From positions 1 through 52,425 of the IMG/VR virus record IMGVR_UViG_3300027028_000036: a stretch of DNA of 52,425 nucleotides; one strand, given 5' to 3'. The position numbers were made by a program, and so were the translations under genes. This document shows, in pieces, positions 451 to 26,243 of the stretch. The notes below the pieces were generated by a model. It ran no database searches and was not told the origin of the DNA. It was given only the letters and a program-made list of their open reading frames with translations. This DNA comes from a virus. Positions within the stretch are counted from its first letter, which is position 1. Each line of letters opens with the position of its first letter.

Positions 451-844
451 ACCAAATCGCATTCGAAATAGTCTGAGCTCCAGTCGCTCAGGGCAGACCC
501 CGAGCCGGAAAAAGCTTCACCGGCAAGACGGTTCTCTACGATCCGGCCAAGTCCCGGGAATTCAAACAATACGTGAAGCTCATTGCATCCCATCATAAGC
601 CACAGGAGCTCATTCAGGGGCCGATACACAGACACCGAAGAAGTATCAGACAAAGCCGAAACAAGCGCTGATTGATGCTGGTGAACTGCTGCCGGTGATG
701 AAGGTGGACGTTGATAATCTGGCGAAGGGTGTAAAGGATGGACTTTCGAAGATTATTTGGCAAGCTGATAGCCAAGTGGTCGGCATGACCGTGAAGAAAC
801 TTTACAGCATGACGCCGAGGGTCGTTTTGCTGATTAATTACTAA
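447..844 (+). pseudogene. rusA: RusA-type Holliday junction resolvase, degraded
   Basis: Reading across lesions gives MNQIAFEIV, stop, APVAQGRPRAGKSF, then LYDPAKSREFKQYVKLIA, and after a frameshift near 620-640 TPKKYQTKPKQALIDAG and VDVDNLAKGVKDGLSK. The AQGRPR start, the YDPAKSR block and the VDVDNLAKGVKDGL block with its paired aspartates are hallmarks of the RusA family, which resolves Holliday junctions in phage DNA. A TGA stands where glycine is expected near codon 10, and at least one indel is present. It lies directly before xtrA. It cannot encode a functional enzyme. Confidence 0.75.
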
Positions 845-872
845 GCGAAGAGATAGAGGATGGAGGGGCCCA

Positions 873-1070
873 ATGCGCTTACAAGATGTTAAAATTTCGG
901 AGACAGGGGAATTGATTTTGGATATAATGGAACTACCAGGAAGCCACGTGCTGTTGATTTCCAATGGTAAGGCTCAGCTCGGTGCGCTACCAGCTCATAC
1001 AGAGACACGCATCAAGACGCATGATGGACAAGTCAGGCGTGTTAATTTTGATGAGGGGGTGGAATTTTAA
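873..1070 (+). CDS. xtrA: XtrA-like small phage protein (left remnant copy)
   Basis: 65 residues; start ATG after GGAGGGG. It is closely similar to the second copy at 20554-20751: both share the blocks VKISETG, LDIMELP, VLLIS and RVNFDEG, and both end in EF. The length and position before xpf fit the PBSX XtrA family, whose function is unknown. It stays intact while its neighbours have decayed. Its 3' end carries GATGAGGGGG, which is the ribosome-binding site for the next gene, and its stop overlaps that gene's ATG by one base. A promoter-like GAGACA-N17-TATAAT lies inside the coding sequence. Confidence 0.75.
   Translation: MRLQDVKISETGELILDIMELPGSHVLLISNGKAQLGALPAHTETRIKTHDGQVRRVNFDEGVEF
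900..928 (+). promoter_or_regulatory. Promoter-like element inside xtrA (left)
   Basis: GAGACA (900-905) is followed by exactly 17 bases and TATAAT (923-928). The -10 is a perfect sigma-A box and the -35 matches TTGACA at four of six positions. The same pair with the same spacing recurs at 2437-2465, 20581-20609 and 21437-21465, always upstream of cargo genes. It may allow cargo expression independent of the lytic programme. Coding constraint (SETG and DIME codons) could also explain the two copies inside intact xtrA. Confidence 0.5.
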
Positions 1071-1603
1071 TGGCCAATTTAGTTACCAGCTTCTTTGTAG
1101 ATGTACTACCACCAGTAACAATTGCATTAGCAACGGTCTACTTCAGCTCGAAAATTAATGAGCGAAAACAAAAAATAGAAGACGCCGACGAAAAAAGAAA
1201 GCAAATGAATAATCTATATTTTAAAATAAATAAACTCATAAATGCTCTTAATAAATTTAAAATATTTTCAACTCTAACTGGAAATTTGCGAAAGCGACAT
1301 ACAAATATTAAGTTAGGTAATGAAGACTTGCCAGAAGAGCATAAAGATATGGATAAAGCGGAATTTCTAAGAGAATTTGATCGCGAAATCAGATTCAAAA
1401 TAGATGTTGACCTCGCAAGGATGAAAGAAGAAGTTTGCAGTGCTTATGATTTATTATTAACTTGTCCAATTGATAAATTAAGTCCGAGAGATCATTTCAA
1501 GTGTTTAGAGATCTTCGAGACAGGACGAGATGCGTATAATCTAAAAAACAAATTAGATTTAATTGAGTCATTCAAAGATGAGATGCAACAAAAATACAAA
1601 TAG
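1070..1603 (+). CDS. Cargo protein 1: membrane-anchored, coiled-coil-like
   Basis: 177 residues. The ATG overlaps the xtrA stop (TAATG) and uses the GAGGGGG in the xtrA tail as ribosome-binding site. One hydrophobic segment at about residues 4-24 is followed by a highly charged helical region (INERKQKIEDADEKRKQ) and a long cytoplasmic helical domain. It is AT-rich compared with phage structural genes. The fold plan, an N-terminal anchor plus a soluble helical domain, recurs in the cargo genes at 1688, 2979, 20748 and 24936. Function unknown; superinfection exclusion or abortive infection is an inference from position only. Confidence 0.7.
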   Translation: MANLVTSFFVDVLPPVTIALATVYFSSKINERKQKIEDADEKRKQMNNLYFKINKLINALNKFKIFSTLTGNLRKRHTNIKLGNEDLPEEHKDMDKAEFLREFDREIRFKIDVDLARMKEEVCSAYDLLLTCPIDKLSPRDHFKCLEIFETGRDAYNLKNKLDLIESFKDEMQQKYK

Positions 1604-1665
1604 TCCCACCTGCTATCTGGAGAAAACTTTACAGATTAACAGCTGTTTTGTGGTTCGTTTTGCAT
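1601..1665 (+). terminator. Degenerate cassette-end repeat T1
   Basis: Begins on the TAG stop of the preceding gene with TAGTCCCACC, then CTGGAG, ACAG..AACAGCTGTTTTGTG. It is a diverged member of the cassette-end family best seen at 2351, 3471, 21354 and 25458. The hairpin is weakened here, so termination may be leaky. Confidence 0.5.
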
Positions 1666-1687
1666 AATTTGATGAGGGGGAAAGGAT

Positions 1688-2353
1688 TTGAGGCAGTGGG
1701 GTAATTTTTACTTTTGGTCGACATGGTTACTGTTAACCTGCCTATTTACATTAATATTTCACATGTATTTAAGCGAATTTAATTTGAAAGAAATCATTGA
1801 TACAATTACACTTTATTTTATAGATGTGAAAACAATTCTTACAGTTCTGGGAACAATTTTTGGAGCATATTTTGGGGCGAAAACTGCCGGCAAGTACGCT
1901 ATAGAGTCTGTCGAGAGACAAATACAAGCACAAGAAAAGAAAGAGAATGAAAAAGAAAATAATAAATTTTTAAGGTATTTAAATGTATTCATTACCCATT
2001 TGGAATCTATTCTCATAGTTGACTCCTTGCTTAAGAGAAAGTTTGACTTTGATAGCGATATTATTATAAAAAAATCCTCAATTGATATTGCAAAAGAAGA
2101 AATTAACGATCAATTAACAACTTTAAAGAAACTAGACATAACTGAGATGAAAGACCAAAATTATCATATCTTTTTGTTTTGTTTGTTATTAATTAAGCAT
2201 TATTTAGAGTCTTTAGACTATATACTAAAATATTTAGCAGATTCGCAATTCGAAGAAGTGAAACTTGAATTCATAGACTTAAAAGAGCATTCATCAAATT
2301 TGGAAAAACATCTAGATACATTGAAAGGTATTTTATCTAAATACAATGGATAG
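1688..2353 (+). CDS. Cargo protein 2: two membrane segments plus cytoplasmic helical domain
   Basis: 221 residues from a TTG start placed seven to eight bases after GAGGGGGAAAGG. Two hydrophobic segments are visible, at about residues 8-28 and 49-66 (TVLGTIFGAYFGAKTAG). A charged coiled-coil-like stretch (QAQEKKENEKENNK) and a long helical domain follow. The 25 bases before the start, TTTGATGAGGGGGAAAGGAT then TTGA, copy the 3' end of xtrA, although no xtrA is present here. The TAG stop is the first triplet of repeat T2. Strongly AT-rich. Family not recognised. Confidence 0.7.
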   Translation: MRQWGNFYFWSTWLLLTCLFTLIFHMYLSEFNLKEIIDTITLYFIDVKTILTVLGTIFGAYFGAKTAGKYAIESVERQIQAQEKKENEKENNKFLRYLNVFITHLESILIVDSLLKRKFDFDSDIIIKKSSIDIAKEEINDQLTTLKKLDITEMKDQNYHIFLFCLLLIKHYLESLDYILKYLADSQFEEVKLEFIDLKEHSSNLEKHLDTLKGILSKYNG

Positions 2354-2412
2354 ACCCACCGGCCAACTGGAGGACACACGACAGCGTAACTGCTGTTTTG
2401 TGTCCTCTTTTT
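2351..2412 (+). terminator. Cassette-end terminator T2
   Basis: Starts on the stop codon: TAGACCCACCGGCCAACTGG, then GAGGACACA...TGTGTCCTC followed by TTTTTAT. The outer stem GAGGACACA / TGTGTCCTC is perfect and encloses an ACAGC / GCTGT inner stem, so this is a textbook intrinsic terminator. The leader CCACCGGCCAACTGG is conserved between copies although it is not needed for termination. Confidence 0.8.
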
Positions 2413-2436
2413 ATATAATTAGAATTACAATATTTG

Positions 2437-2465
2437 GAGACAAATTTCTTTGTATTAGATATAAT
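2437..2465 (+). promoter_or_regulatory. Promoter for cargo gene 3, xtrA-derived
   Basis: GAGACA (2437-2442), 17 bases, TATAAT (2460-2465), lying between terminator T2 and the start at 2525. The flanks (ATATTTGGAGACA, GATATAAT) match the middle of xtrA, so it appears to be a leftover of an xtrA copy retained as a promoter. Confidence 0.65.
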
Positions 2466-2524
2466 ACGATAAACTAAAAGTTGTGTGTTAGTGAATTAAA
2501 AAGGCGAGGAAAGAAGGAGAAAAG

Positions 2525-2893
2525 TTGTCGAGCGATAGATTCATATTTTGTTTAGGATTTGGATTTTTATTTACAGCGGTAATAGGTATGTCATTTGAAC
2601 TACCTTCCGAATTAATCTTTGGTTTTTCATTATTTGCTTTTATTATAACTCTATCTCAAATTTCCTTTTTATCTGATAGTGACAGGGAAAAAATTAAAAA
2701 AGGTAGTATATTAGATACATTGTTTGATTTAATCAAAGTAAGCGTTATAGTGGCGGCGATTCCAATCTCTGTAGGACTTCCTGTTCTTATAAACGAATTA
2801 TTTGTTGAACCTAATGATTTTTTCACGAGATTTTCAAGTTATATAACTATTTTTAGTATTGGATTGATTTTAATAATGAGAAAAGCAAGATAA
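2525..2893 (+). CDS. Cargo protein 3: small polytopic membrane protein
   Basis: 122 residues from TTG, eight bases after AGAAGGAGA. About four hydrophobic segments (residues roughly 5-25, 29-50, 68-92, 104-118) with a short charged loop SDSDREKIKKG. It has its own upstream promoter and terminator T2 behind it, so it is an independent unit. No signal peptide or enzyme motif. Function unknown; a membrane exclusion protein is possible. Confidence 0.65.
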   Translation: MSSDRFIFCLGFGFLFTAVIGMSFELPSELIFGFSLFAFIITLSQISFLSDSDREKIKKGSILDTLFDLIKVSVIVAAIPISVGLPVLINELFVEPNDFFTRFSSYITIFSIGLILIMRKAR

Positions 2894-2945
2894 GTCTCAT
2901 CAGCTAATCGAAAGACACATTACGGCATAATTGCTTTTTTGTTTC
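2891..2945 (+). terminator. Diverged cassette-end repeat T3
   Basis: TAAGTCTCATCAGCTAATCG then AAGACACATTACGGCATAATTGC and a T-rich tail. It keeps the order of the cassette-end family (CCAC-CAGC, GACACATTAC, GC..T-run), but the stem is eroded. Confidence 0.5.
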
Positions 2946-2978
2946 TTTTTGAAAGATTTGAAAAGAGGGGTGGGAGTC

Positions 2979-3473
2979 TTGAGTGAGATATGGATTGCTC
3001 CAATTGCAGCTTTAATAGGAACTATAATTGGAGCTACGACTCCGATATTTCTTGAGTTTTTTAAGAATAAAGTAAATAGATCTTATTTCAAAAAAGAAAA
3101 GCACGAAAAGTTCACCAGAATCATGTTACACGAATTTCTACCTGCTATTAGGAAGGTTACTGACTCTTTAGAAGTCTTTACACGGGACGAATATATTCAT
3201 ATGATAGATTCTTACTCTGCAGAATTAAAAAAGAATCTGGAAAAAGTGATAAAGTTGTTTGAAAATGATATAAAAGATATTTATCCTTTAGAAATGGTTA
3301 AAGAAATGGAAGGTTTGACATATGAATTAAATAGTTTAAATGCGTACATCGACTACCAAGAAATGACTGGGAGGGGCTTGGATCAAAACAAAGACTATTT
3401 AATTTCTGCGAACAGTAGATTTAAAGAAACAATTGAGAAGTATAGAAAAATCCTTTTAGAGAAATATATATAG
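2979..3473 (+). CDS. Cargo protein 4: single membrane anchor plus helical domain
   Basis: 164 residues if TTG 2979 is used; it follows GAGGGGTGGGAG at good spacing, and this junction again resembles the xtrA tail. An N-terminal glycine-rich hydrophobic segment (APIAALIGTIIGATTPIF, residues 6-23) is followed by FFKNKVNRSYFKKEKHEK and a long helical domain. The architecture parallels the protein from 20748, whose segment reads IGTLIGAFLGAALAG. The stop TAG is the first triplet of T4. Family unknown. Confidence 0.68.
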   Translation: MSEIWIAPIAALIGTIIGATTPIFLEFFKNKVNRSYFKKEKHEKFTRIMLHEFLPAIRKVTDSLEVFTRDEYIHMIDSYSAELKKNLEKVIKLFENDIKDIYPLEMVKEMEGLTYELNSLNAYIDYQEMTGRGLDQNKDYLISANSRFKETIEKYRKILLEKYI

Positions 3474-3538
3474 TCCCACCAGCCAAATGGAAGACATCAT
3501 TACAGCATTATGCTGTAATGATGTCCTCTTTTTTATTT
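3471..3538 (+). terminator. Cassette-end terminator T4, extended stem
   Basis: TAGTCCCACCAGCCAAATGG leads into a near-perfect hairpin, GACATCATTACAGCA, loop TTA, TGCTGTAATGATGTC, then CTCTTTTTT. This is the strongest hairpin of the family; the AA/TT mismatch seen in other copies has been repaired to full pairing, which supports selection for structure. It isolates the cargo array from xpf, whose start follows 24 bases later. Confidence 0.85.
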
Positions 3539-3561
3539 CCGAAATCAGAGGAGGTCCTTCG

Positions 3562-4059
3562 ATGAAAGTATGGGCAGATGAACTATTACACGAATACGTC
3601 ATTCACAAAAAAGACCTGGAGCGACGTCGGGACCGATTGGATCGCAACGACTTTCATTCCAAGCAGGACCTCGCGCAGATCAATAGCATGATTGGAAGCA
3701 TGAACTTCTCGATGGAGTGGCTCGAAATCGGCAGACAGCCTGGCACATTCAAGGGCATCGATAATAAGAGCATCTACCAGCACCAATCCTTCTCGAATAT
3801 GGATTTCATCCCGGACATTACCGAGGAGCTGGTAGAAGGGCCGGAGCAATTGTATATGACGGCTGAAGAGAAGATTATTCTGGCTGATATTTTTGCGTCA
3901 TTATCGCTACGTGAACGACAGTGCTATATCCTGCATGAGGCTGCAAAACTTAGCATCGGAATGATTGCGGAAGAAATAGGAGTAGGACGATCTACAGCTC
4001 AAAGTTATATCGATTGAGCTAAAAAGAAGGTCAGAGACCGTGTGCAGCTTTCCGTTTAG
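3562..4059 (+). pseudogene. xpf: Xpf/ArpU-type late activator with a premature stop
   Basis: The frame gives MKVWADELLHEYVIHKKDL..., then MDFIPDITEEL, MTAEEKIILADIFASLSLRERQCYIL and a sigma region-4-like helix-turn-helix ending TAQSYID. TGA at 4015-4017 then interrupts; the frame continues AKKKVRDRVQLSV to TAG 4057. The intact relative at 25752-26243 reads YVDRAKKK, so CGA (Arg) became TGA and the last 14 residues, including the basic end of the recognition helix region, are lost. Xpf in PBSX activates the late operon. The truncation probably impairs DNA binding; partial activity is not excluded. Confidence 0.8.
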
Positions 4060-4062
4060 CTT

Positions 4063-4095
4063 AAGACGTACACTTGCCGTACAGTCTGCCGTACA
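4063..4095 (+). repeat. Direct repeats, candidate Xpf binding sites (left)
   Basis: Three copies of a 10-mer (AAGACGTACA, TTGCCGTACA, CTGCCGTACA) at 4063, 4074 and 4086, spaced 11 and 12 bases, so on one face of the helix. They lie immediately downstream of xpf and ahead of the packaging genes. The intact prophage has TTGACGTACG twice at 11-base spacing in the same place. Confidence 0.6.
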
Positions 4096-4105
4096 AAGTC
4101 GGTAA

Positions 4106-4169
4106 TTATGAAGGGGAGAATAAAAGAGGGGATGCGTTCTTGCGAACAGTCCCTACCACAGCCCCACTT
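4106..4169 (+). promoter_or_regulatory. Conserved noncoding element upstream of the late genes (left copy)
   Basis: TATGAAGGGGAGA, AGAGGGGATGCGTTC, loop TTGC, GAACAGTCCCT and CACAGCCCC. It is nearly identical to 26536-26597 although the surrounding cargo differs. The inner stem GTTC/GAAC is kept while the loop has changed, as expected of a structured RNA leader or a DNA site such as a packaging site. Confidence 0.55.
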
Positions 4170-4277
4170 AATCAGCATTTATAAACCTTATATTTATTAC
4201 CTATTATTTTTGTAAGAACTTCCAATTGTACAATCCATTTGATAAAATTATTGAAAAGCGTATTTGGAGTGGTATTA

Positions 4278-4979
4278 TTGGATTGGAATCTAATGAAAGA
4301 AATTGCCGTTATTACAAAAAATATATTAGAAGGATTATACTATGTTGCGGGTATAGCGCTTGTTTTTGGAATTATCATCGGATTGAAGCAATTAAATTTA
4401 GTCAAAGATCAAGTTAAATTACTTAAAACTGAAGCTATGCAAGCCAAAGAAAATTTTTATTTGAGTAACCAAAGAGCCTCAGTTGAGAAAAGTATCGAAT
4501 ACTTAGGCTTCTACAAAGCGGAAATTATTACTTCTACAGCAAGATTTAGAGCCGCTATTGACCGCGAATTGCCAAAGAAGGCGGATACTTATCATCTATT
4601 TGATGGACAATTCAATTTGACTGCGGCAGATTTGGATAAAGAGATACTATCTGATTCTATAGTTGCTCAAAGAGCTGGTGTAATAGAGGTCTTTAATCAC
4701 TTTGAATTTTTTGGAGTAGCAATGTTACATGGCGTTGCCGATGAACAAATAGTATTTACTCCTATTGGAAGGTTATATTGCAGATTCATCGAAGAAGAAC
4801 ATGTAAGCTTATCTCTGATTAGAGAAAAAGGTGTTCCTTACAAAAATTTGCTTGAACTTTATAAGCTTTGGAGTGACAGACTGGAATTTGAACATCTAGA
4901 ATCTCAAAGATCTGAAGCAGAGAGTAAAATTAAAGAAAAAGGGAATAGTTATAAGGCAAGACCATTTATAGGATCTTAA
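4278..4979 (+). CDS. Membrane-anchored cargo protein (DUF4760-like plan)
   Basis: 233 residues if translation starts at TTG 4278, six bases after GGAGTGG; ATG 4293 or an upstream TTG at 4239 are alternatives with weaker sites. One hydrophobic segment (LEGLYYVAGIALVFGIIIG) precedes a helix LKQLNLVKDQVKLLKTEA and a helical domain (residues about 60-200) ending in a charged tail. The plan of one N-terminal anchor and a helical cytoplasmic domain resembles DUF4760-type proteins, but I am not certain. AT-rich insertion between the late control element and terS. Confidence 0.65.
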   Translation: MDWNLMKEIAVITKNILEGLYYVAGIALVFGIIIGLKQLNLVKDQVKLLKTEAMQAKENFYLSNQRASVEKSIEYLGFYKAEIITSTARFRAAIDRELPKKADTYHLFDGQFNLTAADLDKEILSDSIVAQRAGVIEVFNHFEFFGVAMLHGVADEQIVFTPIGRLYCRFIEEEHVSLSLIREKGVPYKNLLELYKLWSDRLEFEHLESQRSEAESKIKEKGNSYKARPFIGS

Positions 4980-4991
4980 GGAGGAGTTTTT

Positions 4992-5147
4992 ATGAAGGAG
5001 CAACTAATGAAGAAATCATTAAGTGAACTTCAAGAAATACTCGATAATGACATTCAAAATGCAATTCAATCAGCCCCTATAGTGTTTTGGGGAGACGTAA
5101 AAGAAAATTCTACCAACATGTATAATGAACAAGATGTGAATCGTTAA
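4992..5147 (+). CDS. Small protein of 51 residues
   Basis: A near-perfect ribosome-binding site, AAGGAGGAG, stands seven bases before ATG 4992, just after the previous stop. The product starts MKEQLMKKSLSELQEILD and ends NEQDVNR. It is probably co-translated with the membrane protein upstream and is followed by a terminator at 5173. No family recognised. Confidence 0.6.
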   Translation: MKEQLMKKSLSELQEILDNDIQNAIQSAPIVFWGDVKENSTNMYNEQDVNR

Positions 5148-5172
5148 AAAACTATAAGATGTTACTAAAACT

Positions 5173-5197
5173 AAAGCATCCTTCAGGATGCTTTTTT
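5173..5197 (+). terminator. Intrinsic terminator before terS remnant
   Basis: AAAGCATCC, loop TTCA, GGATGCTTT followed by TTT. The equivalent hairpin GCATCC/GGATGC at 27175 sits at the same place, before terS of the intact prophage. Confidence 0.8.
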
Positions 5198-5239
5198 CTA
5201 TGTCTTAAAAATGGTGAATAACCTTAAAGTTGGTGATAG

Positions 5240-5680
5240 ATGGTGAAGTTTACAGCGAAGCAACAGATGTTCATCGATGAATACCTAGTGGACCTAAATG
5301 GCACTCAGGCGGCGATTCGTGCAAAATACAGTAAAAAAACAGCAAGGACAACAGCAGCCATGTTGCTAGCAAAAGGTAACATCCGTGCGCGCATAGAGGA
5401 ACTAAAGAAAACACGAGCTGACCGTTTGGAGCTTGATGCTTACCGGATGCTGAAACGCTTGATGGATACATCAGACCGAGCAATGCAGCAAGAGCCTATG
5501 ATGGAATTTGATTATGTGGAACAGCGACTAGTTCTGATAGGCGAATACTAATTTGATAAGCGGTGAAAACAAAGCAATCGAACTGATTAGCAAGCATCTA
5601 GACATGTTCAAGGAAACGGTAAAGCATGGGGGGGCGTAACTTTCCTGGACGATATCGGTGGTGGAGAAAATAGTTTGTAA
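5240..5680 (+). pseudogene. terS: Terminase small subunit, frameshifted
   Basis: The frame opens MVKFTAKQQMFIDEYLVDLN, GTQAAIRAKYSKKTAR, typical of the XtmA-like terminase small subunit N-terminus with its helix-turn-helix. It closes at 5551. After an indel the coding continues as NKAIELISKHLDMFKETVKH, and after a second, in the run of G near 5630, as VTFLDDIGGGENSL to TAA 5680. Two frameshifts therefore inactivate it. It differs from the terS of the intact prophage (27241), so the two phages used different packaging modules. Confidence 0.75.
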
Positions 5681-6002
5681 GATATCCGAATTCATTACTA
5701 CGGCGTTTCATCCGGTTTAGAAAGCTACGATGTCCAGCGACATATTAAACATCGTCTGCAAGGATAGGCATGGTTCTGAGAAGTCCTTGGACGTTTAGTA
5801 CGTCTTCGTGCAGTTGTCGATGTGACTTCCAATGAACTGAATCGGCTTTCGGAAAGTAGACAATATGCTGGAGCTTTTCATCTTCGAGCAGATCAAGTGG
5901 GCGATATCAGAGCAAGACGTTTCCCATCTGTTCAAAGTCAATAAGTCTCTGATGCTACATCGCTATCCACCCCCACCGTGTTTCTACTGGGTAAAGGGCT
6001 GA
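5673..6002 (+). pseudogene. terL: Terminase large subunit, N-terminal fragment with several stops
   Basis: A single frame overlapping the terS end reads CKISEFITTAFHPV, stop, KATMSSDILNIVCKD, RHGSEKS, and after further stops IGFRKVDNMLELFIFEQIKW and ISEQDVSHLFKVNKS. It matches the XtmB-type terminase plan, in which GGRGSGKS follows the first 30 residues; here the Walker A has decayed to RHGSEKS. At least four in-frame stops are present, and the sequence ends after about 110 codons. Everything from here to the tail end is deleted. Confidence 0.65.
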
Positions 6003-6173
6003 GTAGCACCTGAGCCAAAACTCGCCACTAAATCCGAAGTCGAAAACCTTCAAGCCCAGGTTTGTACGTCTGTTAACCGGTCCGGCTTCCTGAAACAATG
6101 CCGGGTGGAGATGGCGTAGCTGGTGTACAAGTGATACTCGAATTACTGATCTGTTTGAGGGGAGGTGAAATCA
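6003..6173 (+). pseudogene. Relic of a small tail-end gene after a large deletion
   Basis: Short coding traces remain, such as APEPKLATKSEVENLQAQV (about 6007-6063) and GGDGVAGVQVILELL, in differing frames. The first resembles the C-terminal coiled segment of short proteins encoded just after tail-tip genes in Bacillales phages. They directly follow the terL fragment, so the whole head and tail region has been lost. Confidence 0.4.
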
Positions 6174-7869: not shown

Positions 7870-9042
7870 CTATTTTCTCTTCAGTTCTTCTTTAATATCC
7901 ATCAATTGATTAAATTCCGCAGCCAAACGTGAAACCGTTCGTTCTCGCATTTCCTTTGTAACGTGCATATATATTTGCGTGGTGGTTTCTGAATTCTTAT
8001 GACCCACACGCTTCATAATTTCGGGCAATCCTTCACCAGCTCCAGCCAATATACTAATATGTGTATGGCGCAAGATGTAGGTGAACAAATGCTTCCGGAT
8101 AGATGTCTTCTTACCGATACGAGTGATTACCTGCCGGGTCTGATCCACACTAAGAGGAAATCCATCGGGCGTGGTGAAAAGGAAGGGACTCTTTTTAAAG
8201 CCGTGCCGTTTCTTGTATTCCAACAAACTATCGATCATCGAAATGATAGTAGGATCCATATCCACTTTTCGGATGCTAGTATCCGTTTTAGGAGGGGTCA
8301 GTTCGTAAATAGCTTTTTGTCGTTCGCGCCGAAATAATGTTTTTGAAACCCATATTTGGTTGAACTGGCGATACACGTCCGTTTCTTGGAGCGCTAAAGC
8401 TTCACCTGGCCGCATACCAGAAAAAGCTAAAACGTATATTAGAACTGCATAGACGTAATTACTATAACCGTCCGTCTTTTCTAGAAACTCAGCCAATTCA
8501 TAGCGTTCCAGGAATAGTTCTTCGACTTTAGTATTTTCGAGATCTTCAACGGTCACTTTCTTTCGCGGAATACGCGCGGCGACTGCCGGGTTTTTATTGA
8601 TAAGATGATGGCTTGTAGCATGCTCAAAAATAGAGCGACCTGTGGTATGAATGATTGTCAGCGAACTTCTCGATTTACCTTCCTTAAATAAGTCATCAAG
8701 CATAGCTTGATACAATTTTGGTGTAATGCTCTGCAGCGGTATATTGCCGAAGTACTCATTTAGCCATCGCATGCCAAATTCACGAGTCATATTGGTATTT
8801 TCTTTATTTCCTCGGTTACGGTAATGCTGATACCATTCAGCAGCGAACTGATGGAAGAGTATTTTCGCATCGTAATCCAACAGATGCTGTGCTTCTCGAA
8901 TCGCTTGCTCCACTTTGGTTTTGGCTTCGCCTTTTGTTTTTCCGCGCCGAGAGATTTGTTTGCGTTTTCCCGTACGCGGATTACGCGGTCCTTCAGCGAC
9001 ACAAACCCATTTTTTTCCTTTCATTAACTCACGGAAATACAT
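7870..9042 (-). CDS. int: Tyrosine site-specific integrase
   Basis: 390 residues with AAGGGGGAG before ATG. An N-terminal arm-binding domain (1-55), a SAM-like core-binding domain (60-165) and the catalytic domain (180-370) are recognisable. Catalytic residues: R211 (SGMRPGEA), K252 (TPPKTD), R325, H348 (VGHKN) and nucleophile Y358 (QIYMHV). The usual HxxR is YILR, with Tyr322 in the His position. It integrates and, with help, excises the prophage at an attachment site expected just downstream at 7573-7869. It reads leftward, as is typical for the attL end of A118/PBSX-like phages. Confidence 0.95.
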   Translation of the reverse strand: MYFRELMKGKKWVCVAEGPRNPRTGKRKQISRRGKTKGEAKTKVEQAIREAQHLLDYDAKILFHQFAAEWYQHYRNRGNKENTNMTREFGMRWLNEYFGNIPLQSITPKLYQAMLDDLFKEGKSRSSLTIIHTTGRSIFEHATSHHLINKNPAVAARIPRKKVTVEDLENTKVEELFLERYELAEFLEKTDGYSNYVYAVLIYVLAFSGMRPGEALALQETDVYRQFNQIWVSKTLFRRERQKAIYELTPPKTDTSIRKVDMDPTIISMIDSLLEYKKRHGFKKSPFLFTTPDGFPLSVDQTRQVITRIGKKTSIRKHLFTYILRHTHISILAGAGEGLPEIMKRVGHKNSETTTQIYMHVTKEMRERTVSRLAAEFNQLMDIKEELKRK

Positions 9043-20553: not shown

Positions 20554-20751
20554 ATGCGCATGCAAGAAGTCAAAATTTCGGAGACAGGAACTCTGGAATT
20601 GGATATAATGGAATTGCCTAGAAGTTGCGTCCTACTGATATCTGAAGGAAAGGTAAAGATCAGTGAATTACCACCATATGCTCAAACGACTATAAAAACA
20701 CATGGTGGGCAAGTGAAACGTGTGAACTTTGATGAGGGGGAAGAGTTTTGA
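20554..20751 (+). CDS. xtrA: XtrA-like small phage protein (intact prophage)
   Basis: 65 residues; TTAGGAGGG is the ribosome-binding site of ATG 20554. Nearly the same as the copy at 873: VKISETG, LDIMELP, CVLLIS, IKTHGGQVKRVNFDEG and final EF. PBSX XtrA has no known function. The gene sits at the entry of the cargo array. Its coding sequence contains a promoter-like pair, and its last 25 bases provide the ribosome-binding site of the first cargo gene, whose TTG start overlaps its TGA. Confidence 0.78.
   Translation: MRMQEVKISETGTLELDIMELPRSCVLLISEGKVKISELPPYAQTTIKTHGGQVKRVNFDEGEEF
20581..20609 (+). promoter_or_regulatory. Promoter-like element inside xtrA (right)
   Basis: GAGACA (20581-20586), 17 bases, TATAAT (20604-20609). 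The copy at 21437, no longer in a coding context, keeps the same spacing and boxes. This suggests promoter function rather than codon constraint alone. Confidence 0.55.
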
Positions 20752-21356
20752 ATAGCACAGAATTTTGGGGAAGCATTAGTCCGGATGCTTGGTTATCTTC
20801 TATAGGAACTTTGATAGGGGCATTTCTTGGTGCTGCTTTGGCAGGTGTTTTCGCTGTTTACGCAGTAAAAAAACAACTACAACATGATTCTGATAACAGA
20901 AGACAGGAAGAACTGTCTAAAATTTTGAAAACTAGTGTCGCATTTTTAGCGAAACATGGAACCTACAATGATTTTCTCAGGAAAAATTTAGAAAGGCTTT
21001 CGTCATCTGCAGAAAAAATATCCCAGGAAGACATTATAGAATTTAGTATCTTTAAAAAAGACGCCGGAATTTATTCCAAAGATTTAATTTCAATGTCTAT
21101 AGAGAATATGTCGTATGAATCTTATAAAAAATATCTCATTGTTAATAGACTGATTCAATCTACGGAGGCAACTTTGTTTTATATCGATGAGACTTTGAAA
21201 AGAACTAATGAAAAAGCCGAAATCATTAAATATATTTCAAGTTTAGAGAAGGTTTTAGCAGAGCTCGAAAAAGATTATAAAGAGCTAAAAAAAATCGAAT
21301 CAGAAGAAATAGCTGAATACGAAAAGCTAAAAAATCTTACGAAAAAAAATAAATAG
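20748..21356 (+). CDS. Cargo protein A: membrane anchor plus long helical domain
   Basis: 202 residues from TTG 20748 (TTTTGA overlap with xtrA; GAGGGGG site). Residues 14-36 (LSSIGTLIGAFLGAALAGVF) form one hydrophobic span. The rest is helical and highly charged, with coiled-coil character (KVLAELEKDYKELKKIESEE) near the C-terminus. AT-rich. It ends on the TAG that opens terminator T5. It resembles the 2979 protein in plan. Function unknown; exclusion is an inference from locus. Confidence 0.7.
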   Translation: MNSTEFWGSISPDAWLSSIGTLIGAFLGAALAGVFAVYAVKKQLQHDSDNRRQEELSKILKTSVAFLAKHGTYNDFLRKNLERLSSSAEKISQEDIIEFSIFKKDAGIYSKDLISMSIENMSYESYKKYLIVNRLIQSTEATLFYIDETLKRTNEKAEIIKYISSLEKVLAELEKDYKELKKIESEEIAEYEKLKNLTKKNK

Positions 21357-21420
21357 TCCCACCAGCCAACTGGAGTACACACCGTAGCTTAATCGCTATT
21401 TTGTGTCCTCTTTTTATTTT
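21354..21420 (+). terminator. Cassette-end terminator T5
   Basis: TAGTCCCACCAGCCAACTGG, then AGTACACACCGTAGC...GCTATTTTGTGTCCTCTTTTT. The leader is identical to T6. The stem carries a few mismatches (AGTACACA against TGTGTCCT), so it is weaker than T2, T4 and T6. Confidence 0.75.
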
Positions 21421-21549
21421 GAAGTGGCAAAGTTTGGAGACAATAATTCTTGAGTTGGATATAATGGGGTTATTAGTAAATTATATACTTTGATCTTCAC
21501 GTAAGATGAAATTCGAGAGTGTGAAATTTGACTAGGAGGAAGTGTTCTG
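21421..21549 (+). pseudogene. xtrA relic carrying a promoter and ribosome-binding site
   Basis: GAAGTGGCAAAGTTTGGAGACA aligns with xtrA codons from 20568 onward, and TTGGATATAATGG is identical to xtrA. The end, GTGTGAAATTTGACTAGGAGG, aligns with the xtrA tail GTGTGAACTTTGATGAGGGGG. The middle is deleted. GAGACA (21437-21442), 17 bases and TATAAT (21460-21465) survive, as does the AGGAGG, so the relic still forms an expression cassette for the next gene. Confidence 0.65.
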
Positions 21550-22203
21550 AAGTTAAAAATACTTATTAAGATTATAGTTTACGTTGTTATTATTCCATTT
21601 ATTATTCTATTGTTGCTTAGTACGGTAAGTTTCTTGAAAAGTTTTGTGCCTTTGCTTATTTCTATATGGATGGCTTCCATTTATTTTTTTATTATAACTT
21701 ATCTATTTCACGTTATATCTTTTAAAAGAAATAAATCATTTAAAGGTTCTATATACGATTGGATGGAAGAGTTAAACGATAACGATAAAAGTTTAACTCA
21801 ACAATTGAATCAAATGAACACAAGATATAAGACTATCGATAATCTAATGGCTATAAAACAAATAATATTAAAAAATACTCAATATGATTTGAAGAAATTG
21901 AAAATGTATAAAGCATACTATTCGATTTCTTTAAAAGAAACTGTCGAAGAAGTTTACTTTAAAATAGTAATGGGTCTCCTGGTATCAGTTGCACTGTTTC
22001 TGCTAAAAAGTGAACTTTCGCAGAAAGTTGATCTAAACTATTCGAATGCGGTTTTTATTGGTTTAATTTTTATCTTTACAATACTGGCAATAGTCGGTGT
22101 TATAATGGAAAACAAAAAAAGAACCAGTTTAATAGTTGAAATTCTTGAAGTATGCATTGATGAAATTGAAGATGAAGAAAAAGAAATTGGGAAAAATTCT
22201 TAA
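21547..22203 (+). CDS. Cargo protein B: polytopic membrane protein with CTG start
   Basis: 218 residues if read from CTG 21547, six bases after AGGAGGA. The product then begins (M)KLKILIKIIVYVVIIPFII, a natural membrane start; a downstream TTG near 21610 has no ribosome-binding site. Two hydrophobic segments lie near the N-terminus (about 5-30 and 35-60), a charged helical middle follows, and two more lie near 140-160 and 170-190. The equivalent position in sibling cassettes is TTG, so TTG to CTG is likely a mutation. Function unknown. Confidence 0.62.
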   Translation: MKLKILIKIIVYVVIIPFIILLLLSTVSFLKSFVPLLISIWMASIYFFIITYLFHVISFKRNKSFKGSIYDWMEELNDNDKSLTQQLNQMNTRYKTIDNLMAIKQIILKNTQYDLKKLKMYKAYYSISLKETVEEVYFKIVMGLLVSVALFLLKSELSQKVDLNYSNAVFIGLIFIFTILAIVGVIMENKKRTSLIVEILEVCIDEIEDEEKEIGKNS

Positions 22204-22249
22204 AAGGAGGACTTTATAATAATCTTATAGTCATTATTATTTTAAACCG

Positions 22250-22429
22250 ATGGATAGTCCATATTCCGAACTAAGAAAACTTCAAACAGCAATTATAATT
22301 AATTCTCATCAAATTAATTTTGTGAAAGCTTAAGAATACTTCATAAATTTAGTTGTAGAAACAGAAGACGTGATTGAAAAACTAGTTAAAGCAAAAGCAT
22401 TAAAGAAATGTGTGGGTAGTTATAGTTAA
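22250..22429 (+). pseudogene. Small broken reading frame before the PARIS-like pair
   Basis: MDSPYSELRKLQTAIIINSH... runs 27 codons to TAA 22331 and continues in frame as EYFINLVVETEDVIEKLVKA to TAA 22427, about 58 codons in all with one in-frame stop (CAA or AAA to TAA). AAAGGAGG stands far upstream at 22204. It fills most of a 298-base gap between genes. It could be a decayed small gene, or simply chance reading in AT-rich DNA. Confidence 0.35.
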
Positions 22430-22501
22430 ACGAAGGACATATTCTGGATAATAGTTGAGTACATAAAAATATGAATCTAAGTAGTTGAGGGGGTAAAGTT
22501 A

Positions 22502-23902
22502 ATGTTTATTAAAAGTCTCAAAATTGATAATCTTTACGGCAAGAATTATTCAATCCAATTTGATAAAAATTTGGTGATTCTGTACGGTCTCAATGGGAGT
22601 GGTAAGACAACTGTATTGAACATTTTATACAGTATCTTAGAAGGGGATATTAGTAGCACGTTAGTTTACAAGTACGAATCGCTTACATTAGTTATGGTTA
22701 AAGATGGAAAGACAGAAGAGGTGAAAATCTCCTTTAACGCAGAGGTTGAACTTTATGAAATAAACCTTAATGGCCGGGTGATAGGGATGTACGATTTTAA
22801 TGGCAACGATAGATTTTTTTCTGGGGATACATATGTCAATGGAAGAGGACGACTACATAGTCATGAGGGCCATAACACTTATACGGATAGAACGTGGGAT
22901 TCAAATAGGAATATTTCTCCTCATTATTCATCTATTAATTCAAATCCTGTTTATAGGAGAAATTCTCAAATTCCGAAAAGAGAATTAATGAAGTTGTCTA
23001 AAATTTTCAGGAATGAATTAGTATATGTTCCTTTGGATCGAAAAGTCAAAGGAATTGAAAGCAAACTTAATAGATTTAATAGATCGGTTGTTACAACTAA
23101 TAAAAAAAATATTGAGAATTCTTTAGGCATTGCTGAGGATTACTATAAAGAATACCTTCGCTATATTTCACAAAAAGAAATAATTATACACGAAGATATG
23201 CGAATTAAAATATTAACCGAACTTTCAAAACCACAGTTAAATTTAATCGATCATTCCATGAAAAGTACAGAAAATGATTTTAAAAGCCTTATTAAAGAAC
23301 TCAGTGACCCAATATTTAGAGAGCTTAAAGAAAATGTAATAGAACTTAATACTATATATCAAAACAAAGATAGACTTAGCTTATTAAGTAAAGGGAAGTT
23401 GAATTTCCAAGAAACTTCTGATTATTTTGATTACATGTATGCAACTGCTCAGTTAAAAAACTTACATAGTGTAGTTGAAAAAGTTAAGCCACTGAAAAGA
23501 GCCATTGACGATCTTAAAGAGAAATCTAATAGTGTTATTAATTCTATAAATGAGCTCTTTAAAGAAACAGATAAAAAAATAATTTATGACAGGAGAGAAG
23601 GAGAGTTCAGCTTCTCACCAGTTAAGAAAAACGAAAAAATTAGTTTGAATCATCTGTCATCAGGTGAAAAACAATTAATCATGTTTTATATTTTTTCAAT
23701 CATAAAATTTGATAAAAATGATACGAAAATACTTTTTATTGATGAACCAGAACTTTCTTTGCATATAGATTGGCAATCAAAATTATTACCTTCCATTGTC
23801 GAAAAAGGCGATAATACTCAAATTATTGTAGCTACTCACTCTCCAGATATAATAGGAGATTTTGTATCGAATACTGTTCAAATTAAGGGGGAATTAATTT
23901 GA
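22502..23902 (+). CDS. ariA: AriA-like AAA ATPase of a PARIS-type defence system
   Basis: 466 residues; TTGAGGGGGTAAAGTTA precedes ATG. Walker A GLNGSGKTT (29-37), ABC-type signature LSSGEKQ (385-391), Walker B ILFIDEPE (410-417) and switch histidine in ATHSPD (H446) define an ABC-like AAA ATPase of the AAA_15/21 type. It overlaps a DUF4435 gene by four bases. This pair is the PARIS arrangement (AriA, AriB), in which the ATPase holds AriB inactive until it senses a phage anti-restriction protein such as Ocr. Assignment rests on domain pairing; overall similarity to E. coli AriA was not measured. Confidence 0.8.
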   Translation: MFIKSLKIDNLYGKNYSIQFDKNLVILYGLNGSGKTTVLNILYSILEGDISSTLVYKYESLTLVMVKDGKTEEVKISFNAEVELYEINLNGRVIGMYDFNGNDRFFSGDTYVNGRGRLHSHEGHNTYTDRTWDSNRNISPHYSSINSNPVYRRNSQIPKRELMKLSKIFRNELVYVPLDRKVKGIESKLNRFNRSVVTTNKKNIENSLGIAEDYYKEYLRYISQKEIIIHEDMRIKILTELSKPQLNLIDHSMKSTENDFKSLIKELSDPIFRELKENVIELNTIYQNKDRLSLLSKGKLNFQETSDYFDYMYATAQLKNLHSVVEKVKPLKRAIDDLKEKSNSVINSINELFKETDKKIIYDRREGEFSFSPVKKNEKISLNHLSSGEKQLIMFYIFSIIKFDKNDTKILFIDEPELSLHIDWQSKLLPSIVEKGDNTQIIVATHSPDIIGDFVSNTVQIKGELI

Positions 23903-24768
23903 ATGGGATTCCAACTAGAAAAGAAAATGCATATTTAGCAGAGATTGTTCTAAAGCAAGAAAAATATGATTTATTTTTATTTATAGAAGATGAAAAGTTA
24001 AATGTTATGTACGAAATTATAGTAAATAAAATTTTTAATAAAACAGTCACTATCGGAAAGATTTTCCCAATGAATAGTAAAAAAAATGTTCTTTTACAGT
24101 TCGAAAAATGGAAAAGTATAGAGAAGAGAACTAAGAATAAAGTGGCATTTATAGTTGACAGAGATTACGATCATTTAAAAGGCGAACAAGTACCTAATCA
24201 TAATAATTTAATACAGCATGAATATTATACTATCGAAAATTATCTAATTTCAAAAGAAGGCGCGATGTCTTTGATGAAACACAGAATGCAGTCATACGAT
24301 CCAGAGCAATTAGATGAAAAACTTAATTGGGATTGGTGGATGCGTTATACATTCTTGGAATTTGAAAAACTTTTTTTAAGTTATGCCGTCGCATTTAAAT
24401 ACGATTTGAGAAGTAATTGTAGTATCTCTCCTCACAGATACCTGGCAAATGGTGGGTATCAAATAATCCCGGAACAAATTCAAAGCTATATTGAATCAGT
24501 AGAAGAATTATTTTCTGAGAAAAATGATTTAAGTATAGGGGAAGCATATCAAGAAGTACAAGAATATTTTTTAAACGAAGGAGAGACCAACTATCATCAA
24601 TTGATAAGTGGAAAATATCTAGTTGAAGCCTTAATTAAGTATGTTAGTTCAATTTCAGTAAACACTGTAGTGGATAAAGATTTAATTAAAACCAATTTAC
24701 TACATGAGTACCCTATAGAAAAACTAAGTTTTTTCAAAAATAGAATTGAAAATATTCTCTTAGTATGA
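23899..24768 (+). CDS. ariB: AriB-like DUF4435 effector
   Basis: 289 residues from TTG 23899, overlapping ariA, with AAGGGGG upstream. LFLFIEDEK (Glu30 region), AFIVDRDYDH (Asp87, Asp89, Asp91) and YYTIENYLIS (109-118) fit the DUF4435/TOPRIM-like core. In PARIS, AriB is released from AriA and acts as a toxic nuclease that cleaves host tRNA-Lys, stopping phage growth. The acidic triad positions are visible here. The C-terminal half is helical. Target in this host is unknown. Confidence 0.78.
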   Translation: MNGIPTRKENAYLAEIVLKQEKYDLFLFIEDEKLNVMYEIIVNKIFNKTVTIGKIFPMNSKKNVLLQFEKWKSIEKRTKNKVAFIVDRDYDHLKGEQVPNHNNLIQHEYYTIENYLISKEGAMSLMKHRMQSYDPEQLDEKLNWDWWMRYTFLEFEKLFLSYAVAFKYDLRSNCSISPHRYLANGGYQIIPEQIQSYIESVEELFSEKNDLSIGEAYQEVQEYFLNEGETNYHQLISGKYLVEALIKYVSSISVNTVVDKDLIKTNLLHEYPIEKLSFFKNRIENILLV

Positions 24769-24800
24769 TGACCTATGGAAGCTAATTATAAAATTTAATG

Positions 24801-24822
24801 TTATCTCACCAGCTAAAATGGT
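24801..24822 (+). repeat. Eroded cassette-end repeat T7
   Basis: ATCTCACCAGCTAAAATGG resembles the TCCCACCAGCCAACTGG leader of the family, 33 bases after the ariB stop. The terminator hairpin is gone. Confidence 0.4.
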
Positions 24823-24935
24823 TATTAATCAGCAATGGCAAACTAAGATTAGGTCCATACACCTCCTCATAAGAAACATATATCGAGTTGCACGATGGAT
24901 AGGTTAGGTAAGTGACTTTTGGGAGGGAGAAAGTT

Positions 24936-25460
24936 TTGACGAAACAAGATTGGTTTGACGTGTTTAATACGAGCTCAACTAAGGACTGGTCCGATTGGTT
25001 ATTAATTGCCGCTTCTATACTTTCGCCCATTATTGCACTAGTAACAACTGTATATGCTGCAAAATCTGCTGAAGCAGCAGGAAAAGCGGCGAATTTGACT
25101 TTGAAAATGTATGAGGAACAGAAAGAGGATCACGAGAAAAGCTTTCTGCCTTTATATACAGTCGATGGGTGGACGGAAGAAAGTCTGAATGCAATACACT
25201 TTAAACTAGTTAATAAAAATCTAACTCCTGTTTCTTTTGTTGATGCTGAAAGTCAAATAGAGGATTTTGAATATATGCATTTTAAAAAAAATGACGAGTT
25301 AAGCTTTTCAATACAACACGATTTTATAAATAAAAATGAAGTATTATTTGAAGTTTATTATGATGCGTTGAATCACCATAGATATAAAAGTGAAATTAAG
25401 TTAGCAATTAAAAATTACGATGTAGTAGTTGTTAATCAAAATAACATCAAATTATATTAG
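24936..25460 (+). CDS. Cargo protein C: membrane-anchored protein with beta-rich domain
   Basis: 174 residues from TTG 24936, after GGGAGGGAG and the xtrA-tail-like TTTTGA. A hydrophobic span (WLLIAASILSPIIALVTTVY, about 24-43) is followed by a helix with AAKSAEAAGKAANLTLKMYEEQKE and a beta-rich C-terminus of about 90 residues. It ends on the TAG of terminator T6. Family not recognised; co-location with a PARIS-like pair suggests a defence or exclusion role. Confidence 0.68.
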   Translation: MTKQDWFDVFNTSSTKDWSDWLLIAASILSPIIALVTTVYAAKSAEAAGKAANLTLKMYEEQKEDHEKSFLPLYTVDGWTEESLNAIHFKLVNKNLTPVSFVDAESQIEDFEYMHFKKNDELSFSIQHDFINKNEVLFEVYYDALNHHRYKSEIKLAIKNYDVVVVNQNNIKLY

Positions 25461-25526
25461 TCCCACCAGCCAACTGGAGGACACATTACAGCATAACCGC
25501 TGTTTTGTGTCCTCTTTTTTATTTTT
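25458..25526 (+). terminator. Cassette-end terminator T6 (reference copy)
   Basis: TAGTCCCACCAGCCAACTGG, then GAGGACACATTACAGC, loop ATAACC, GCTGTTTTGTGTCCTC and TTTTTT. The stem pairs throughout except for the central TT/TT. It closes the array before the conserved small gene and xpf. Confidence 0.85.
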
Positions 25527-25546
25527 AGAAAAGGAGAGTGCAAGGA

Positions 25547-25741
25547 ATGCGAACGATTCAAGACCAACTGAGAAAAAAAGAACTTTCAGCAAGCTTAGGA
25601 AACACGGGAACACCAGCAAATACAAATACAAGCAAGAAGTCGAAAGAACAGCTCACAAATCAAGAATGGGCGGAAATCATGGGAAGTAATCGAGATACAT
25701 TCAGACGAGCAAAAGGCGGGGCAATCAGACGTAATCGATAG
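25547..25741 (+). CDS. Small basic protein upstream of xpf
   Basis: 64 residues from ATG 25547 (AAGGAG ten bases upstream; GTG 25538 is less likely). MRTIQDQLRKKELSAS..., a Thr/Asn-rich linker, then QEWAEIMGSNRDTFRRAKGG and a basic end IRRNR, suggesting a small helix-turn-helix. Similar basic proteins commonly precede xpf in Bacillales phages. Confidence 0.65.
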   Translation: MRTIQDQLRKKELSASLGNTGTPANTNTSKKSKEQLTNQEWAEIMGSNRDTFRRAKGGAIRRNR

Positions 25742-25751
25742 GAGAGAGAAG

Positions 25752-26243
25752 ATGATGATTTGGGCGGATGAAATGATATTGCAGTATAAGAAGCACCGGG
25801 GCGAACTGATTCGAAAAAGAGCGAAATTGAATAAAGAAGATCCGCAGAACAAACTCGATTTAACTCAATACAATAGCATGATTGATGAAATGGATTTTGT
25901 GCTGCAGTGGCTGGAAACTGGAAGAGATCCGAACAATTACCGCGGAGCGGATAAAAGAGGAATCTATCAGTCTCAATCATTCCAGAGCATGGACTTCATT
26001 CCGGACATCACCGACCAGATTGAAGAAGGCCCGAAGCATCTCTATATGTCTGCTGAAGAGAAAATCATTATGGCTGACATCTTCGCCTCTTTATCGTTCC
26101 GGGAGCGGCAATGCTACGTCTTGTATGTTGCAGGAAGCATTAGTATGGGGAAGATTGCTCAAGAAGTAGGTATTAAAAAAAGAACTGTGCAGCAGTATGT
26201 GGATCGAGCTAAGAAAAAAATAGAAAAATTAGTTTTGTCATAG
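25752..26243 (+). CDS. xpf: Xpf/ArpU-type late transcription activator
   Basis: 163 residues. The N-terminal helical half carries MDFVLQWLETGRDPNNYRG; the conserved MDFIPDITDQIEEGP and MSAEEKIIMADIFASLS precede a sigma region-4-like helix-turn-helix (REKQ-type FRERQCYVLYVAG, KIAQEVGIKKRTVQQYV) and a basic tail AKKKIEKL. Xpf of PBSX and the ArpU/LlgA regulators switch on late genes. The phased TTGACGTACG repeats 260 bases downstream are the likely binding site. Confidence 0.85.
   Translation: MMIWADEMILQYKKHRGELIRKRAKLNKEDPQNKLDLTQYNSMIDEMDFVLQWLETGRDPNNYRGADKRGIYQSQSFQSMDFIPDITDQIEEGPKHLYMSAEEKIIMADIFASLSFRERQCYVLYVAGSISMGKIAQEVGIKKRTVQQYVDRAKKKIEKLVLS

Follow-up and report, generated by a model that had tools for sequence, protein, structure and literature searches.

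The locus described here raises the question of why four small genes should stay open in a prophage whose flanking genes are broken, and how they might be read. The window, by which we mean the whole stretch of DNA analysed, is a 52,425-base IMG/VR record (IMGVR_UViG_3300027028_000036), and a prophage remnant occupies its positions 1 to about 7.6 kb. In this remnant, xtrA and an xpf-type sigma gene enclose four plus-strand open reading frames (ORFs), c1 to c4, of 177, 221, 122 and about 164-168 amino acids; the original observation that these small genes sit in the same slot as those at 20748-25460 of the window holds. We know of no function for xtrA, a tiny gene of PBSX-like phages. Probably the prophage was decaying around an xtrA slot in which four accessory cassettes had become stacked, with xtrA acting as an expression dock. 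As to how such a dock would work, we lean towards a dual-coded xtrA whose codons spell both a sigma-A promoter and the Shine-Dalgarno (SD) sequence of the next gene: this portable dock would capture defence cargo by recombination, old docks would lose their reading frame but not their promoter or SD, and the late regulator would be insulated by a conserved terminator of two hairpins.

The anatomy of the array shows, at the sequence level, a repeated unit made of xtrA with an embedded promoter-like sequence and an SD, then a cargo ORF, then a slot terminator. All coordinates given for the array and its flanking genes are on the plus strand. The xtrA gene at 873-1070 is intact (Pfam PBSX_XtrA, PF17356, E 2e-14; 74% amino acid identity to the xtrA of locus L008, with no stops). 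It carries at 899-928 the promoter-like sequence P1, GGAGACA-N17-TATAAT, with 10 of 12 matches to the sigma-A consensus, and at 1047-1059 the SD TTTGATGAGGGGG, lying in C-terminal codons with a GAG/GGG bias and found in copies elsewhere. The feature was first delimited as 1070-3538, which is too small given the promoter inside xtrA. The first cargo gene, c1 (1070-1603), starts on the xtrA stop codon (TAATG) and is followed by T1 (1602-1663), a decayed copy of the slot terminator (nhmmer E 1e-13) that forms no hairpin. Later cassettes keep worn relics of xtrA with the -10 element and/or the SD, and have terminators of their own. Thus c2 (1688-2353) is preceded by a relic of the xtrA 3′ end (1668-1691) with an SD and a TTG/TGA overlap, and is followed by the strong intrinsic terminator T2 (2351-2413). 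A decayed relic at 2429-2509, in which a second GGAGACA-N17-TATAAT sequence, P3 (2436-2465), is intact, stands before c3 (2525-2893) and the weakened terminator copy T3 (2893-2950). The last gene, c4, read as about 164 codons from a TTG at 2979 to 3473, ends in the strong terminator T4 (3471-3535), which closes the slot ahead of the xpf-type gene. The cargo has a GC (guanine plus cytosine) content of 28-32% vs 45-50% in the flanking core genes.

The slot is present in about 100 prophages of Planococcaceae and Bacillaceae. A search seeded with four aligned xtrA proteins recovered 36 loci in genomes and 80 in viruses, giving 109 distinct xtrA-linked regions from Planococcus, Planomicrobium, Domibacillus, Bacillus, Lysinibacillus, Virgibacillus and others. 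Most xtrA genes have a DIM motif in common, and the DNA beneath it is conserved beyond the protein: its isoleucine codon is ATA in 64 of 74 motifs vs 100 of 547 other xtrA isoleucine codons (p 2e-31), and codon conservation is tight from position -8 to +3 around the motif and relaxed after it. The TATAAT is retained despite amino acid changes, namely DIM to DII (Met to Ile) in L026 and L089 and DIM to NIM (Asp to Asn) in Aeribacillus phage AP45. Both GATATAATG and GAGGGG are under synonymous constraint in xtrA. The C-terminus DEGEEF encodes the SD with GAG in 85/100 and GGG in 83/100 genes, vs 29% and 35% elsewhere in xtrA (p 7e-26 and 2e-18), and the first cargo gene starts at -3 or 0 from the end of xtrA in 60 of 108 slots, although TTTTGA always contains TTG, so that the -3 call is partly a statement about frame. 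In Planococcus the promoter-like block reads GAGACA-N17-TATAAT. Within the 52 kb of the window, GGAGACA-N17-TATAAT (up to one mismatch) occurs exactly four times, with 0.03 expected, and only at the array docks, twice in xtrA genes and twice in relics. P1 and P3 are the top consensus promoter matches in 840-5300, but the total number of matches there is no more than chance, so the case for a promoter rests on the exact repeated sequence and not on a consensus score. Four slots are empty, and all four lack TATAAT, vs none empty among the 48 slots that have it (p 0.009). In Bacillus-clade xtrA, for example at L005 6408-6608, an inverted repeat CTAGT-N8-ACTAG lies in the block of many members and could be an operator.

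Worn xtrA relics ahead of later cassettes are also found in L008 (9767-9957), L015 (five), L050 (three), L012, L013 and L014, and in both arrays of the window. Their reading frames are usually lost, but identity is 47/48 in the -10 element and 138/160 in the SD, vs 764/1027 in the rest (p 2e-5 and 1e-3). The L008 relic is closer to the xtrA of other prophages (80-81%) than to its own (75%), and movement of cassettes between phages together with their dock would fit this pattern.

The terminator family is the second constant of the slot. T1-T4 are members, and the family profile matches 100 of 104 xtrA loci, almost always 3′ of the last cargo gene. The cross-genus consensus is GTTCTACCAGCCAACTGGAGGACACTGAATGA ... 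GTGTCCTTTTTT, in which a small CCAG-CCAA-CTGG hairpin precedes an intrinsic terminator. Compensatory changes are seen at four stem pairs in the planococcal set. An exact 22-mer of the terminator is present in 41 viral contigs, one copy per contig, and xtrA lies upstream of it in every contig that includes at least about 1.6 kb of upstream DNA. In the four empty slots the element follows soon after xtrA. No Rfam family matched it. In the c1-c4 array each ORF does end in a copy of one family, as originally claimed; however, folding is convincing only for T2 (z -5.4) and T4 (z -7.7), with T1 unfolded (z +0.66) and T3 weak (z -1.7). Four independent transcription units were therefore rejected, T1 being dead and T3 weak. 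Two units are predicted instead, P1-c1-c2-T2 and P3-c3-c4-T4, and this anatomy agrees with the earlier prediction of messages ending at T2 and T4. In many loci the terminator stem holds GGAGG and then ATG (CTGGAGGACACTGAATGA), for instance at L026 9640-9700, and could double as a ribosome site.

Wherever anchoring was possible, an xpf-like or ArpU-like regulator lies downstream of the slot, and the AT-rich cargo between is different in nearly every prophage. A Pfam scan of 134 cargo proteins returned 53 families, among them putAbiC (5), HNH (5), RelA/SpoT (3), AAA_15, PIN, McrB-N, Mrr, Fic, reverse transcriptase and an IrrE-type peptidase; SIR2 and others turned up in single cargo scans, XRE and ImmA/IrrE proteins are also among the cargo, and in many slots the cargo is one small membrane gene. 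PADLOC matches to the cargo include type IV restriction (5), AriA (3) and AbiP (3), whereas those of a control set of 133 non-slot proteins from the same prophages are mainly phage methyltransferases. An N-terminal transmembrane (TM) segment is predicted in 77 of 145 cargo proteins vs 16 of 572 controls (p 2e-46). The xtrA slot thus resembles a defence hotspot in that its position is fixed while its cargo varies and counts known defence systems among its members. One of these is PARIS (AriA ATPase and AriB DUF4435), present in L015 and in the second array of the window at 22502-24768 (AriA E 7e-34, AriB E 9e-19) and absent from 1070-3538.

Several observations weigh against the dock model as we propose it. 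GAGACA is a mediocre -35 element, and the only one in many Bacillus xtrA genes resembles AGTACA; about a third of the loci lack any TATAAT yet carry cargo, so that the embedded promoter is no universal feature. Conservation of the block could also reflect an operator or some other site of protein-DNA contact. The loci are related, so that the counts above are not independent, and relic identity was taken from BLAST alignments, which are biased toward conserved words. Finally, c1-c4 match no defence family or other named family. In another explanation, the TATAAT block belongs to the lytic programme of the phage, acting on xpf as its promoter or operator, and what we call cargo consists of early lytic genes such as host-function inhibitors or lysis modulators. 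The slot does sit in the early operon, ahead of the late regulator, XtrA is listed in the Xre regulon of B. licheniformis (PMC4374763), and in the Bacillus clade a CTAGT...ACTAG symmetry lies close to the block. However, the embedded promoter would not serve xpf directly, because the slot terminator stands between them in 100 of 104 loci; the cargo includes PARIS, restriction endonucleases, RelA/SpoT and putAbiC, and the relic promoters of the window stand only before cargo. We regard this explanation as improbable.

What the four proteins do is less clear than how they are arranged. Three N-terminal anchors and one polytopic protein had been predicted, and hydropathy agrees, with one TM segment each in c1 (residues 5-23, before a helical domain), c2 and c4 and four in c3; in c2, however, the main segment lies at residues 40-58 with a weaker helix ahead of it. 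The c2 model joins a glycine-rich TM segment to a four-helix-bundle domain (AlphaFold2 predicted local distance difference test, pLDDT, 75), and the c4 model is all helical after its N-terminal TM segment (mean pLDDT 68). Identity between the two arrays of the window had been denied, wrongly for one pair: c2 and the protein of 20748-21356 are distant homologues (phmmer E 6e-6 to 1e-5), and c4 has an N-terminal glycine-rich membrane module in common with both (hhalign probability 79%). Full independence of the arrays is thereby rejected; there is indeed a second array, in a decayed prophage with a homologous slot, but dock, terminator and one protein family are common to both. Relatives of c2 occur in the xtrA slots of L010, L015, L070 and L137 and have a near-invariant segment, TILTVLGTIFGAYFGAK, with divergent C-terminal helices; those of c4 occur in the slots of L015, L011 and L014 and in 5 of 46 genomes of the genus. 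For c1 and c3, no close relatives were found in IMG/VR by single-sequence searches or in 250 Planococcaceae genomes, with a weak match of c3 to L037 cargo (E 0.005), and the sister cargo 20748-21356 gave no tblastn match in phage records.

Structural comparison did not assign a function to c2. Its PDB matches are four-helix bundles of a generic kind and were rejected (best Foldseek E 0.035), as were those with VIA Z scores of 11-16, where designed bundles lead and chemoreceptor sensor domains come next, a range that overlaps that of unrelated helical bundles. Among viral folds, c2 is best matched by a 159-amino-acid protein of phage AP45, which we take, from its equal length and not from an accession, to be gp26, a protein of 159 amino acids encoded between XtrA and a sigma factor with the same terminator after it. 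The gp26 gene appears mis-started in its record (L180, NC_048651.1, 4180-4752), since a start at the TTG that overlaps the stop codon of XtrA gives the protein a membrane segment at its N-terminus that is missing from the annotated version. No putAbiC or AbiP profile of Pfam or PADLOC matched c1-c4. Our best guess, from the company they keep in the slot and from analogy with PdpSau (see below), is that they act in exclusion or abortive infection of other phages, for which we would put the chances at about even; the wider dock model is better supported. The slot elsewhere also holds Fic, RelA/SpoT, PIN and XRE with ImmA/IrrE, and cargo genes are often paired on one predicted transcript, as one would expect if they were toxin-antitoxin or addiction modules holding the remnant in the chromosome. 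We consider this quite unlikely for the present array: c1-c4 match no toxin or antitoxin family, and many slots hold but one small membrane gene.

The open state of c1-c4 was originally taken to suggest selection in the lysogen. Decay was scored against the intact relative L008 (P. citreus). As stated at the outset, the cargo is open amid broken genes: rusA (447-841) has an in-frame TAG and a frameshift, the xpf-type gene (3562-4050; NCBIfam PRK06930, positive control factor, E 2e-30) loses its last codons to a TGA at 4015-4017, and the pseudogene fragments at 5240-6035 are a terS broken by one nonsense codon and a frameshift and a terL with five stops in 126 codons, the rest of which is then lost; xtrA itself is intact. 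No disablement was found in about 690 cargo codons, vs 5 primary ones in about 519 codons of rusA, xtrA, xpf and terS, which would predict about 6.6 in the cargo (Poisson P of none about 1e-3). With terL added, 10 in about 645 codons predict about 10.7 (P about 2e-5), whereas the adjacent xtrA and xpf alone, with 1 in 239 codons, predict about 2.9 (P about 0.06). These estimates presume a single mutation rate and that the cargo was present at the onset of decay. Selection on c1-c4 in the lysogen is thus plausible, being suggested by the wider set of genes, and not demonstrated, the adjacent genes giving only the last figure.

The alternative here is that the ORFs are neutral leftovers, junk gained by recombination and open because decay is recent. 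Substitutions against L008 are even over the three codon positions in terL (27/29/42) and heavy at the third in rusA (3/3/16 and 7/7/20) and terS (9/10/32). Since those in rusA and terS are still mainly third-position, inactivation is mostly recent, which would have left the cargo only a short time in which to decay. Decay has also reached T1 and T3, and cargo decays in other slots. A case of the latter is L103 1597-2679, where a RelA/SpoT-like cargo gene is split into three ORFs. Set against these points are the disablement counts just given for cargo and flanking core genes, the retention of promoters and closing terminators, and the recurrence of conserved families in the same slot, and we find neutrality unlikely, if a more serious contender than the lytic explanation. 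Lysogenic expression is better supported by the predicted embedded promoter, kept at both docks of the array, than by the openness of the ORFs.

Elsewhere in the window, the second prophage adjoining the remnant has its integrase at 7870-9042 and repeats the order xtrA, cargo, regulator at 20554-26243; its plus-strand dock and slot, with xtrA, cargo and slot terminators, span 20554-25521. A megablast search of this intact prophage against phage records gave no match. In its array, the second cargo gene has an apparent CTG start (21519-21550) overlapping the TGA of a relic, upstream of the listed TTG at 21610, that would add a first TM segment; between this gene and AriA (22204-22500) lies a small, apparently broken cargo ORF (22260-22430, with an in-frame TAA). 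In the remnant, an intact membrane-anchored gene with 33% GC and a DUF4760 match (E 5.5e-7) is found at 4239-4979, between xpf and terS, with a strong hairpin after it at 5173-5194, and the region is probably a second accessory slot.

Under the dock model, sigma-A RNA polymerase would start at the embedded promoter and read the cargo in a lysogen whose phage early operon is repressed, and ribosomes would initiate at the SD encoded in xtrA. Termination at T2 and T4 would keep the messages from running on and switching on the late regulator xpf. Arrays would grow by recombination between phages at xtrA 3′ ends or at terminators, a cassette being added each time, and the small membrane-anchored helical proteins, judged by association, would block other phages by exclusion or abortive infection. 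Because its cargo would act against other phages, the slot could outlast the rest of the phage. The model would offer a reason for the retention of xtrA and a possible way for temperate phages to capture, express and stack cargo with their own late switch undisturbed. In practice, xtrA and CTACCAGCCAACTGGAGGACAC provide a sequence handle for reading one cargo slot in Bacillales prophages, where well over a hundred proteins are encoded, most of them unnamed and many of them small and membrane-bound, beside known defence systems. A literature search, with subscription journals largely outside its coverage, found no account of the xtrA slot or of the embedded promoter.

Defence hotspots in prophages are already known. 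Those of P2, P4 and Bacillus prophages (Rousset et al. 2022, PMC9122126) likewise have one fixed slot and highly variable cargo with PARIS among it; however, the Bacillus hotspot of that study adjoins the integrase, another place than the xtrA slot, and its main text does not contain the word "terminator". For the proteins the closest likeness is to PdpSau, a prophage-encoded, membrane-anchored abortive-infection protein with a model similar to AbiP (PMC10127798), which has an N-terminal membrane helix and a cytoplasmic domain and is a prophage accessory gene, as here; AbiP-like proteins do occur in the xtrA slot, but c1-c4 have no detectable AbiP or putAbiC homology. The array also resembles the morons of lysogenic conversion (PMC7067206, with bstA as example), which are horizontally acquired, AT-rich, dispensable for the phage cycle and equipped with their own promoter and terminator. 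Here the GC gap and a cargo unlike in nearly every slot of related phages agree with this, as do P1 and P3, predicted from consensus and copy number, and T2 and T4, predicted from folding. Unlike in morons, however, promoter and SD are predicted inside the conserved xtrA and reused as worn relics, and one terminator family marks every cassette. Integron cassette arrays are alike in their tandem cassettes behind a common promoter region, but no integrase was recognised in the slot and no attC-like sites were noted (attC folding was not searched), and the cassette boundaries are instead the xtrA 3′ end and the terminator homology.

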